A stretch of 48,423 bases of DNA from Chloroflexota bacterium (GTDB taxonomy: Bacteria; Chloroflexota; Dehalococcoidia; Lucifugimonadales; UBA3495). Location: contig VXOI01000059.1 in NCBI GenBank assembly GCA_009840175.1, positions 1 to 48,423 on the forward strand, given 5' to 3'. A program made the position numbers and the translations under genes. Below the pieces are notes generated by a model. The model was not told the DNA's origin. It made no database searches and saw nothing but the letters and a program-made list of their open reading frames with translations. Positions 1 through 44,345 of this stretch are shown here, piece after piece; position 1 is the first letter of the stretch; the number at the start of each line of letters is the position of its first letter.

Positions 1-139
1 AGACGGAGGGCTAGACCCCGGCCCTGATTGACCCCAGCCGCCGCCGGCGCCCGTCTCATTCGCCCGCGCCGGCGGCCCGTTCACCGGACTCGTAACGAGA
101 TCACGGCGGCCCAGCGATATAGCTGCCCGCCTGCGCGAT

Positions 140-331
140 ATGAAAGAGACCACCGGACAGGAACAACCGAAGAGACGAGGTAGGCGGGCCATTGAGGACC
201 CGGAGCTGAAGGTCGTGGGCATCGACTTCAAGCCCGCTCCCGACGCCGAGGAACGCCTGCGCCGCCTGTTCACCATCCTGGCACGGGTGGTGGAGGGCGA
301 CTTTGCCACGCCCGAGGCGGAGTCGTCGTAG
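140..331 (+). CDS. small hypothetical protein
   Basis: A 63-residue ORF with no recognised family. The N-terminus is basic (KRRGRR) and the C-terminal half has an amphipathic, helix-like pattern (EERLRRLFTILARVV). Short proteins of this style often sit in serine-recombinase elements, and a recombinase lies 2.6 kb downstream, but that link is inference. No strong Shine-Dalgarno sequence is visible before the ATG. The longer antisense reading frame over the same bases looks like a shadow. Confidence 0.45.
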   Translation: MKETTGQEQPKRRGRRAIEDPELKVVGIDFKPAPDAEERLRRLFTILARVVEGDFATPEAESS

Positions 332-558
332 GACGAGGACGGGGAGGGGCAATGCTGATGGTCTTCCACTCGATTCTCACCGTGACCGGCCAGGGAGCGG
401 GAGTCCGGTCCACTGTTATACCCCTCCCTCGGAGCCGAAGGTCTGCGGGAACGTCCAGGACCGGCGCCCTTTCCGCGCGCCATGTCCACCCCGGAGAATT
501 TGCCAGACAGTGTCTGGAGAATTGAAGCGGAAGAAGGCTGATGGCCTATCCGACAGCT

Positions 559-587
559 TTGATGCACTGGTGTTGCTATGTTATGCT
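559..587 (+). promoter_or_regulatory. promoter of the VapBC operon
   Basis: TTGATG at 559-564 and TATGCT at 582-587 are separated by exactly 17 bp, close to the sigma-70 consensus. The predicted transcription start falls at about 594-596, which is the ATG of the antitoxin gene. No ribosome binding site precedes that ATG, so the transcript is probably leaderless. Confidence 0.5.
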
Positions 588-595
588 TATTCATC

Positions 596-853
596 ATGAG
601 AACAACAATCTCCCTTGACGACCAGCTTGCCAGGCAGGTGCGCCGCGCCGCTGAGGCCGCAGGTATCAGCGTAAGCGCCTTTATTGCCAAGACATTAGAC
701 GATGCTATGAAGCGCCGTGAAACGCAGGAGCCGCCTCCGTTCCAGCTGATCACCGTGCGGGGCGTGCGCGCACGCCCCGGAGTGGACCTGGACCGGCCCA
801 GGGCGCTCGACGCGCAGGACGACGAAGCCGCCTACGGGCGCGGGAGCCGTTGA
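596..853 (+). CDS. vapB: ribbon-helix-helix antitoxin, VapB type
   Basis: An 85-residue DNA-binding antitoxin that should neutralise the PIN toxin encoded 6 bp downstream and repress the operon. Residues 1-40 (MRTTISLDDQLARQVRRAAE, then ISVSAFIAKTL) match the ribbon-helix-helix pattern: a short beta strand, then two helices. The C-terminal half is Pro/Arg/Asp-rich, as expected for the toxin-binding tail. An upstream in-frame ATG at 578 lies inside the -10 region of the likely promoter, so 596 is the better start. The start has no Shine-Dalgarno sequence. Confidence 0.8.
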   Translation: MRTTISLDDQLARQVRRAAEAAGISVSAFIAKTLDDAMKRRETQEPPPFQLITVRGVRARPGVDLDRPRALDAQDDEAAYGRGSR

Positions 854-859
854 TTCGAG

Positions 860-1303
860 ATGCTGCTTCCCGACGTCAATGTCCTGATATACGCGCACGT
901 CGAGGACTCCACCCCGGACCACCCCGCGTACGCAGACTGGGTCACCCGTTTGGCGACGGGACCTGAACCCTTCGCTCTCTCCGTCCTCGTCCTGTCCGGT
1001 TTCGTCCGCGTCGTGACCAACCCCCGAGTCTTCGACCCGCCGTCCACCCTCGACCAGTCCTTCGCGTTCGTGGCCTCGCTCCTGGAACGCCCCACGGCGC
1101 GCATCGTGGGCCCCGGACCCGACCACCTGGACATATTCGAAAGGCTGTGCCGCGAGTCGGGGGCCGCCGGTAAGCTGGTCGCCGATGCTCAGCACGCGGC
1201 CATCGCAGTCGAGCATGGCTGCACCATGGTCTCAACCGACTCCGACTTCAGCCGGTTCCCGGGACTCCGGTGGCAGCACCCACTGCGTCCCGTCGGGATG
1301 TAG
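860..1303 (+). CDS. vapC: PIN-domain ribonuclease toxin, VapC family
   Basis: A 147-residue PIN-domain toxin, expected to be a Mg2+-dependent RNase. The first acidic residue is in LLPDVNVLIYA (residues 2-12), and the C-terminal acidic cluster is visible in LVADAQHAAIAVEHG and STDSDFSRFPGL near residues 115-135. Length is normal for the family. It lies 6 bp after the antitoxin gene and is probably co-translated with it. The motif set resembles the VapC subgroup found in Actinobacteria and Chloroflexota. The RNA target cannot be told from sequence. Confidence 0.85.
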   Translation: MLLPDVNVLIYAHVEDSTPDHPAYADWVTRLATGPEPFALSVLVLSGFVRVVTNPRVFDPPSTLDQSFAFVASLLERPTARIVGPGPDHLDIFERLCRESGAAGKLVADAQHAAIAVEHGCTMVSTDSDFSRFPGLRWQHPLRPVGM

Positions 1304-1441
1304 GTCCGTTCCATACCGCCAACAGTGTTTTCGGAATTGGGCGCTCCGGCTCTAACACCTGTAGGGACGGGGATTTCTATTGAGGTTACGAACACCGTTA
1401 GGGCATATATCATCGTCTATATCAGGGGGAATTGAGAGGCA

Positions 1442-2748: not shown

Positions 2749-2778
2749 TTGACGACAGCCTGCCATTAAGCGTATCAT
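2749..2778 (+). promoter_or_regulatory. promoter in front of a structured RNA
   Basis: TTGACG at 2749-2754 and TATCAT at 2773-2778 with an 18-bp spacer. Transcription should start near 2785, just before a strong hairpin, about 150 bp upstream of the recombinase start codon. Confidence 0.6.
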
Positions 2779-2784
2779 GGCTTA

Positions 2785-2905
2785 AAAGTTGGCCCGGCGG
2801 TGCTGACAACACCCCGGGCCGTGGCGCCACCTGCGGACACAGGTGATGCGGTGGTATTGTACTACTTGCAGACCCGCTTCCGGCAGGAGGCGGGTCTCTT
2901 TTGTT
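2785..2905 (+). ncRNA. candidate structured leader or small RNA upstream of the recombinase
   Basis: A segment of about 120 nt bounded by a good promoter and an intrinsic terminator, with no convincing ORF. Three helices are visible. Helix 1 pairs 2791-2802 with 2810-2820: 11 bp, one bulged C at 2798, 7-nt loop. Helix 2 pairs CACCTG (2828-2833) with CAGGTG (2840-2845). Helix 3 is the terminator. It could be an independent small RNA or an attenuating leader for the recombinase gene; the terminator ends 34 bp before that start codon. No known riboswitch class is recognised. Confidence 0.5.
2871..2902 (+). terminator. intrinsic terminator before the recombinase gene
   Basis: GACCCGC (2871-2877) pairs with GCGGGTC (2890-2896). 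TTCC and GGAG extend the stem to 11 bp with a GGCA tetraloop, followed by TCTTTTGTTTT. Confidence 0.8.
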
Positions 2906-2935
2906 TTCAGTCGGCCAGACCCACAGGAGGAGACA

Positions 2936-4528
2936 ATGCCAGGAACCAAAGTGCAGAAGCAGAAATCCCAGGGCAACCGTGCCGCCATCTACGCCCGTGT
3001 TTCCGACAAGAGCCAGGACGCAGAGGACAAGACCTCCATCGCCGAGCAGACCAGCGATATGGAAGCCTACTGCGAGCGTAGGGGGCTGACCATCGTCGCC
3101 CGCTACCAGGAGGTGGGACAGGGCTGGTCCAAGAAGCGCAATCAGTTCCAGAAGATGCTAAATGACGCCAAGCTGGGCCGCTTCGACACCATCGTCTGCT
3201 GGAAGTCGGACCGCCTCAGCCGGGGGATGTACCCCGCCGCCGCACTGATGGAGGTGGTGGAAGCCAGCCACGTCAACCTGGAAGCGGTGATGGACTCCAT
3301 CGACATGAAGACCTTCGGCCTGATGGCCGCCATCGGCAAGATCGAGCTGGACAACTTCCGGGAAAGGTCCTCAATGGGCAAGCGGGGTACCGCCAAGGCA
3401 GGGCGCATCCCGGTCAGCAACGTTCCCTACGGCTACCGCGTCGGCGATGGCGGCAGGCCGGAGATCGTGGAAGAGGAGGCCAAGGTGGTGCGCCGCATCT
3501 ACCGCTGGTGCGTTGACGAGGGATTGGGGGCCACGGTCATCCGTAACCGGCTCACCGCCGAGGGCGCTCCCTTGGGTCGGGCCGGCAAGCGGTGGTGGGA
3601 CGGACAGATTCACCGCATCCTCACCAACGAGACCTACAAGGGCACCTGGTGGTACGGACGCGCCCGCTACGTCTCCACCGAGGACGGCATCAAGGTCTAC
3701 GACCAGGACCCCGAGAACTGGATCGGCGTCCCCTTCCCGGCCATCATCGACGCGGAAACCTGGGACCGCTGCCAGGAAATGAGGACCAAGCGCAAGACCT
3801 ATTCCGGGCGCAACACCAAGATATTCTACCTGTTGCAACACCTGGTGCGCTGCACCGAGTGCGGGATGCTCATGGGCTGCATGGCCACCAGGAAGCGGAC
3901 GGTGAAGCACGGCGACAAGGTGTACAAGTACGAGATGGAAATCCCCCGCCGCTACTACAAGTGCTACGGAGTGCAGCACTTCCAAACCGGCTGCCGGGAG
4001 CACACCATGATCCGGGCGGAGCGGTTGGAGGAGTTGGTCTGGGAACAGGTCAAGCAGGTGCTGGCCAATCCCGCCCTGATAGTCTCAGGGATCGAGTCCT
4101 TGGGTGAGCAGCAAGAGGGAGGACTGAGCGAGGAGGTTGTTAGGGCGGAGCGGGAGTTGGAGAAGGTGCAGTTGGAGGAGGACCGGGCCATCCGGCTCTA
4201 CGTGTCGGGGAAGATAACCGAGGCCCAGCTGGACCACCAAAGGAAGTTCATCACGGAAAGGTTGGAGAGCGCCCGCAGGAAGCTGGACGACTACCGGGCC
4301 AGGGAGTCGGCCCAGGCGGGGCAGCGCGAAATGGCCGAGCGGGTGTTGGAGTGGGCGGAACGGATAGGCGACGGATTGGACGACCTGCCTCAAGAGCAGC
4401 GGAGAGAGGTCCTGCGTCTGCTGCTGGAGGAGGTGACCATCAACCGGGAGAACAACCTCAATTTCACGCTGGCGATCCCATCGGAAGATTTGGAGTCGAT
4501 TGAACCTCCGGTATCAGGCGAGCAATAG
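2936..4528 (+). CDS. large serine recombinase (site-specific integrase)
   Basis: A 530-residue large serine recombinase. The N-terminal catalytic domain starts at AAIYARVSDKSQD, with S23 as the likely nucleophile, and continues through WKSDRLSRG and GKIELDNFRERS. A recombinase DNA-binding domain follows (VPYGYRVG, then WWDGQIHRILTNETYKG). A zinc ribbon begins at CTECGMLMGC and closes with a YYKC motif and a later Cys. A charged coiled coil then precedes the C-terminus (VLRLLLEEVTI), which is the usual architecture. The ATG at 2936 has AGGAGG at proper spacing; the in-frame start 93 bp upstream falls within the terminator hairpin and is unlikely. Such enzymes integrate phages or conjugative/mobilisable elements. 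No attachment sites could be identified, and the left end of any element may lie outside the window. Confidence 0.95.
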   Translation: MPGTKVQKQKSQGNRAAIYARVSDKSQDAEDKTSIAEQTSDMEAYCERRGLTIVARYQEVGQGWSKKRNQFQKMLNDAKLGRFDTIVCWKSDRLSRGMYPAAALMEVVEASHVNLEAVMDSIDMKTFGLMAAIGKIELDNFRERSSMGKRGTAKAGRIPVSNVPYGYRVGDGGRPEIVEEEAKVVRRIYRWCVDEGLGATVIRNRLTAEGAPLGRAGKRWWDGQIHRILTNETYKGTWWYGRARYVSTEDGIKVYDQDPENWIGVPFPAIIDAETWDRCQEMRTKRKTYSGRNTKIFYLLQHLVRCTECGMLMGCMATRKRTVKHGDKVYKYEMEIPRRYYKCYGVQHFQTGCREHTMIRAERLEELVWEQVKQVLANPALIVSGIESLGEQQEGGLSEEVVRAERELEKVQLEEDRAIRLYVSGKITEAQLDHQRKFITERLESARRKLDDYRARESAQAGQREMAERVLEWAERIGDGLDDLPQEQRREVLRLLLEEVTINRENNLNFTLAIPSEDLESIEPPVSGEQ

Positions 4529-5549: not shown

Positions 5550-5623
5550 TGGGGATTAGTCTAGCGGTAGGACACCTGACTCTGGATCAGGCAGCGGAGG
5601 TTCGAATCCTCCATCCCCAGCCA
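5550..5623 (+). tRNA. tRNA-Gln (anticodon CTG)
   Basis: The acceptor arm TGGGGAT pairs with ATCCCCA (5613-5619), followed by discriminator G and an encoded CCA. The anticodon loop CTCTGGA gives CTG, reading CAG. The T-arm is GGAGG, a TTCGAAT loop, then CCTCC. All arms close. The upstream neighbour is a serine-recombinase region; no duplicated tRNA end was seen within the window. Confidence 0.95.
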
Positions 5624-41648: not shown

Positions 41649-41714
41649 AATGTCAGGTTCAGGGAATGGCGGCTATCGCCACAGGGCTTTTCTGTTCAGC
41701 GCAGAATGTAGAGC

Positions 41715-41855
41715 ACCTCCACCCGGGCAGGTTTCCTGACTTGCGGGCATCCCGATAGGCTCGGCAACCCGTTCACAGTGGCGCAACCGTGGCGGACTTA
41801 CACCGCCTTCCCCTGAAATGCCGAGACCGGCGCACCGGGCGGGCCGTTTCGATTG
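41715..41855 (-). promoter_or_regulatory. cobalamin riboswitch upstream of cbiE-cobN
   Basis: The minus strand reads GGGAAGGCGGTGTAAGTCCG, then GCGCCACTGTGAACGGG, and ends with AAGTCAGGAAACCTGCC, the B12-box arrangement of the cobalamin aptamer. Boundaries are approximate. Confidence 0.9.
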
Positions 41856-44129: not shown

Positions 44130-44345
44130 CAGCGAAATTGAGGCCACCCAGTCCGGCGCGCCCTACAAGCGGGCGTGAACAGGGAAAGCGGTGAGAATCC
44201 GCTGCGGAGGCGCCACTGTAACCGGTTAGCCGCCCGCTGATGCCACTGTCCGCTAAGGGATGGGAAGGCGCGGGAGAGGCGATGAGCCGGGAGCCAGGAG
44301 ACCTGCCGGGTTGAGCTGAGCGGTCGCTCTTCGTCCAGGGAGTGC
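44130..44345 (+). promoter_or_regulatory. cobalamin riboswitch upstream of btuC
   Basis: Reads GAACAGGGAAAGCGGTGAGA, then GGCGCCACTGTAACCGG and GAGCCAGGAGACCTGCCGGG, the classic cobalamin aptamer landmarks. A long variable domain sits between them. Boundaries approximate. Confidence 0.95.

Follow-up and report, generated by a model that had tools for sequence, protein, structure and literature searches.

The window examined here is a contig of 48,423 nucleotides from a Chloroflexota bacterium (VXOI01000059.1, positions 1 to 48,423), and all coordinates given without another source are positions on its forward strand. Between 2749 and 2935 it holds a promoter-like site, a strongly folding RNA of ~116 nt and an intrinsic terminator, located just 5′ of the gene for a large serine recombinase (LSR) (Table 1). 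An initial annotation had described this arrangement, and its promoter hexamers, its first hairpin with a single bulged nucleotide and its second hairpin all lie where it had placed them. The terminator has the GGCA loop and T-tract that were reported, but its stem comprises 12 pairs and not 11, and a weaker third hairpin (P3) had not been separated from P1, P2 and the terminator. The recombinase ATG at 2936 follows 38 nt after the terminator stem and ~34 nt after the T-tract, in line with the 34 bp previously given.

The RNA core folds at -64.8 kcal/mol, against -46.4 +/- 3.9 for shuffled sequences (z = -4.68), and none of 200 shuffles was equally stable. The TTGACG/TATCAT pair is the sole sigma-70-like site within 4 kb, a distance over which ~0.8 such sites are expected by chance. 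Since a match of similar quality is thus expected about once per 4 kb, the window match alone is weak and the case for a promoter comes from comparison: the hexamers are kept 5′ of diverged copies, which makes the predicted promoter convincing. The segment had been said to contain no open reading frame (ORF). As worded this does not hold, as mechanical ORFs cross it and one of them, from 2843, is in frame with the recombinase. A leader peptide was nonetheless rejected, because the AUG at 2846 is ACG (TGACGCG) in many copies and none is conserved. At curated covariance-model scores, Rfam 15 gave no match for the window RNA (best chance match 6.1 bits), and only tRNAs were matched in 15 loci holding relatives.

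Table 1 Features of the RNA-recombinase unit in the window
Feature	Position	Strand	Evidence
Promoter-like site: TTGACG (2749-2754), 18-nt spacer, TATCAT (2773-2778)	2749-2778	+	Hexamers recur 5′ of most close copies; spacer varies
Structured RNA core, on which the covariance models were built	2787-2902	+	Fold z-score, homologues, covariation
P1 (helix 1), hairpin with a one-nucleotide bulge; portion in common with phage leaders	2790-2821	+	Two-sided changes, phage relatives
GUGGC linker, mostly conserved	2821-2825	+	Alignments
P2, hairpin CACCUG/CAGGUG	2828-2845	+	Near-invariant in close copies; both sides change in distant copies
P3, weak hairpin bearing conserved AUUGUACUAC	2848-2869	+	80% of cells paired, with covariation
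Intrinsic terminator: 12-bp stem (2870-2897), GGCA loop, CTTTTGTTTT tail	2870-2907	+	Sequence; 5 pairs with two-sided changes
Probable ribosome-binding site of the recombinase, AGGAGGAG	2925-2932	+	Sequence
Large serine recombinase, 530 aa (Resolvase, Recombinase and Zn-ribbon domains)	2936-4528	+	Domain scan
Right end of the element (approximate); final codons vary between copies	4510-4528	+	Homology between copies ends at ~4516-4517

Covariation and linkage to the recombinase

The genome containing the window (G000, a 4.3 Mb draft) has four copies of the RNA, each directly 5′ of an LSR gene. The other three RNAs are 86-89% identical to the window copy, and the recombinases behind them are 99, 89 and 69% identical to the window protein. 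Of 247 genomes of the order, 16 were found by a first covariance model (R1) to carry the RNA. A second model (R2) contributed nine additional close copies from families elsewhere in the class, a single genome accounting for five. Scanning GTDB genomes with a pattern also located it in metagenome-assembled genomes (MAGs) of Dehalococcoidia/SAR202, as well as in MAGs labelled Acidobacteria, Gemmatimonadetes and Versatilivorator, whose contigs are short and may be misbinned; one match of the bacterial genome scan (L081) was discarded as chance coding sequence. These distribution figures are lower bounds, given the samples and strict filters used, and all data on integrative elements come from draft genomes or MAGs.

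Altogether, 32 of 36 close copies lie directly 5′ of this LSR family, with recombinases down to 55% protein identity, some of which are seen only in part where the contig ends. The exceptions are two copies ahead of a PLD-like gene (G020 and G021), one without a terminator (G001) and one poorly preserved copy in G700. In the PLD-type loci (L055 8448-8700 and L056 8150-8390), a second hairpin, CCUCCAGG/CCUGGAGG, can pair the Shine-Dalgarno sequence of the gene, and a ParB-type-like gene is found upstream in both genomes.

The initial annotation had named as its check a covariance search upstream of other LSR genes. Homologues were indeed found there, and their compensatory changes back helix 1 and the terminator, and the remaining helices more weakly. 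In an alignment of 28 sequences, 94% of cells pair and 16 of 36 pairs show two-sided changes, compared with a shuffled mean of 4.3 (0/500 shuffles as high). The signal collapses when the partner is slid by 1-3 columns. Two-sided pairs are distributed over P1 (6 of 12), the terminator (5), P3 (4) and P2 (1). When diverged copies are added the count rises to 32 of 36, including ten in P1; three rows of this wider alignment are doubtful (L125, L126 and an L018 match on the minus strand), which leaves the 28-sequence figure as the cleaner one, and in both cases the alignment was made by fitting to the model and is biased towards it. Within the helices GU cells outnumber AC cells by 102 to 38, a nearly threefold excess that favours an RNA on this strand. 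The loops of P1 and P2 are the most variable parts of the molecule, and the GUGGC linker is 84% pairable with the 3′ side of P3, without covariation.

Relatives in tRNA-gene elements and phages

A broader covariance model (R3) identified relatives in 13 further genomes of 301 sampled across the phylum Chloroflexota, with low scores (30-57 bits) and rough E-values that call for independent support. Of sixteen loci inspected, nine have the RNA directed towards a tRNA gene located ~50-250 nt downstream; RNA and tRNA gene share one orientation in all nine, and short direct repeats often lie between the two. Three complete elements of 6.6-7.3 kb could be delimited. They are flanked by tRNA repeats (62-86 bp) and carry arm-like repeats of 21-33 bp at either end, and a tyrosine integrase gene, oriented like the RNA, occupies the other end of the element. 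Closing these elements into circles would give the order promoter-RNA-terminator-arms-core-arms-int, so that circularisation would place the RNA 5′ of int, with 259, 306 and 264 nt between the RNA end and the int start. Elsewhere, two distant relatives form a tandem pair ~820 bp apart (L140/L158, G422 C13).

A P1-centred pattern matched 31 IMG/VR contigs, nearly all of which were also scored by R3. The phage hairpins lie mostly 20-35 nt 5′ of a start codon, and domains were assigned in 23 of 38 downstream ORFs scanned: HNH in 11, endonuclease VII in 5, tyrosine integrase in 4, GIY-YIG-type in 2 and LAGLIDADG in 1, counts that are only indicative because the ORFs were picked in batches, not at random, and domains were counted among the matches listed. 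Gordonia phage Culver carries a related P1 hairpin 30 nt 5′ of its annotated tyrosine integrase; the BLAST E-value is 0.2, and position and fold fit. The phage leaders consist of P1 and a ribosome-binding site, without a terminator. The window RNA shares P1 and the GUGGC linker with them, but has P2, P3 and the terminator before its gene. Kinship is therefore supported only for P1 plus a RUGGC linker, and short GC-rich hairpins may also have converged. By eye, many phage leaders (L171, L188, L192, L197 and others) have a UNUACC-like stretch soon after the start codon, which resembles the conserved AUUNUAC of the window RNA.

Other searches gave less. A narrow first IMG/VR pattern returned nothing, and the six matches of a second one were chance coding sequence. 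BLAST searches of phages and plasmids with the RNA gave no relative over its full length, and a match to part of P1 on a plasmid of Kitasatospora was not counted (E = 0.3).

Possible roles of the RNA

The segment probably serves as 5′ leader to the transcription unit of the recombinase and comes from an uncatalogued family of structured RNAs tied to DNA-mobility genes. The initial annotation had offered two functions, a small RNA of the element or an attenuator, and had missed the relatives associated with tyrosine integrases and phage nucleases. Both functions are still candidates, and the leader is favoured because the RNA lies shortly 5′ of the recombinase start in 32/36 close copies and one clade has no visible room for another promoter. 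In that clade (G700-type copies) the ribosome-binding site follows ~10-15 nt after the terminator, so the recombinase mRNA very likely begins 5′ of the RNA. By sequence, the layout is that of an attenuating leader: a promoter-like site, a structured leader and an intrinsic terminator immediately 5′ of the gene.

From the conserved structure, the promoter-like hexamers, the genomic arrangement and the covariation, we infer promoter use, termination, low readthrough and regulation by antitermination. Transcription would start ~5 nt before P1; P1, P2 and P3 would fold, and the terminator would then end most transcripts as an RNA of ~115-120 nt. Only polymerases passing the terminator would make recombinase mRNA, keeping the enzyme scarce, and in relatives integrated at tRNA genes the tyrosine integrase gene would come to lie behind the leader only while the element is circular. 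Readthrough could be controlled by an alternative helix, in which the segment after P2, complementary to the terminator 5′ arm, pairs with that arm, or by some factor. In the distant class, native antiterminator pairs are more stable than swapped ones (-9.55 vs -8.13 kcal/mol, p = 0.009, a value that ignores relatedness). On this basis attenuation is likely and antitermination possible. Because relatives also stand ahead of unrelated DNA-moving and DNA-cutting enzymes, the RNA is probably an uncatalogued switch limiting when mobile DNA moves.

Several observations weigh against this leader reading. No antiterminator coevolution is detectable in the LSR class (p = 0.91), where sequences are nearly invariant. 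Two relatives (L066 and L123) sit before unrelated genes. Most recombinases with less than 50% identity are without the RNA, which is accordingly no general requirement of LSRs, and it is also missing from one with 65% identity (L102). An exception in the other direction is L112, where a recombinase of 35% identity has the RNA (42.7 bits), together with a small intervening ORF that has its own P1-like hairpin before its ribosome-binding site.

An independent small RNA acting in trans, with the recombinase as a travelling partner and the conserved unpaired bases binding a target RNA or protein, would account for a promoter-RNA-terminator unit that is complete, for conservation reaching far past a bare terminator (including the unpaired GUGGC and AUUNUA), and for the integrated tRNA elements, where the RNA points outward with no element gene behind it. 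The tight placement of 32/36 close copies 5′ of one recombinase family, some with little room for a second promoter, makes this unlikely in our view, and no target was found, though none was systematically sought. We regard as very improbable that the segment works as DNA, either as single-stranded hairpins or as a recombinase binding or attachment site. In the tRNA elements the RNA does adjoin arm-like repeats and the att core, but GU far exceeds AC in the helices, the promoter and T-tract occur on one strand only, and the right boundary inferred for the LSR elements falls where the recombinase gene ends (3′), at a distance from the RNA. The pairing of a structured RNA with a recombinase, and the high variability of the P1 and P2 loops, also recall the bridge RNA of IS110, which steers its recombinase to a target. 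This was rejected and is scarcely credible: P1 and P2 loops differ among five elements that occupy identical target codons, so the loops do not track targets, the enzyme is an ordinary LSR by domain content, and the same RNA accompanies tyrosine integrases and non-recombinase genes.

A leader that attenuates an integrase has a precedent. In ICEKp1, as reported (PMC13023037), the excised form drives int from a 3′-end promoter, stem-loops in the 5′ untranslated region, arranged as a terminator, attenuate int transcripts, and analogous cases are mentioned for ICEclc and ICEEc1. Its layout, with an outward promoter at the end opposite int that drives int across the junction of the circle, is the one deduced for the three delimited tRNA elements, which are relatives of the window element. 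In the window itself this split layout is not found: the RNA directly adjoins the LSR gene within the integrated element, and the leader is always joined to its recombinase, a serine enzyme. The likeness drawn here is one of layout, and attenuation in ICEKp1 acts on transcripts that come from the tRNA promoter of the host while the element is integrated (PMC13023037). RNA structures just 5′ of stand-alone or intron phage nuclease genes also limit expression of the homing endonucleases T4 I-TevI and Aeh1 mobE; their hairpins sequester the Shine-Dalgarno sequence, whereas the window RNA ends in a terminator and its P1 contains no ribosome-binding site (PMC3014915). The start-associated and extended start-associated sequences of Cluster K mycobacteriophages are likewise recurring inverted repeats just 5′ of many phage gene starts, but they have the consensus GGGATAGGAGCCC with 17-bp inverted repeats and belong to one phage cluster, and the part of the source available reports no terminator (PMC3203893). 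The literature searched, which mostly did not extend to subscription papers, holds no description of this RNA. While leader attenuation of integrases is thus already known from ICEKp1, the RNA family and its spread over recombinase types appear undescribed.

More speculatively, and with considerable doubt on our part, one leader family responding to one common factor or signal might control DNA-mobility enzymes that are unrelated to one another, both serine and tyrosine integrases and nucleases of the HNH, GIY-YIG, LAGLIDADG and endonuclease VII types, in Chloroflexota elements and in phages, as a sensor for cutting or moving that works through translation in phages and termination in integrative elements. 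How recombinases of integrative elements are kept silent yet ready is understood in only a few model elements, and a leader common to both integrase types and phage nucleases would be a shared control point. It would also mark element ends and integrases in metagenomes, and possibly provide an RNA part for tuning the serine recombinases used as genome-engineering tools. Culver is a cultured phage, which opens the idea to experiment now.

Element ends and neighbouring features

Five LSR elements (L007 3699-4241, L008, L070 5829-6359, L071 and L073) share one insertion site, the conserved codons IESVDEFYSENL of a different serine recombinase gene that is broken within its Resolvase domain. The target supplies the last ~11-14 codons and the stop of the inserted LSR, and the C-terminus therefore depends on the insertion site. 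The right flank of the window copy, near 4517, differs from that of these five.

Upstream, window positions 1-1379 hold a toxin-antitoxin-like ORF pair (578-853 and 860-1303) and match, at 86% identity, DNA close to a further copy in this genome (L007). The next ORF, at 1442-2683 (413 aa, without a Pfam match), gives way to a different one at L007 and is present in G004 (L074), resembling swappable cargo. A short conserved stretch at 33-336 recurs 5′ of the RNA-recombinase unit in L009, L064, L070 and L071 at varying distances. Farther along, a tRNA-Gln(CTG) gene (5550-5623, + strand) lies ~1 kb past the right end of the element, and two cobalamin riboswitches on opposite strands (41709-41854, -; 44137-44324, +) are found within 2.5 kb of each other.
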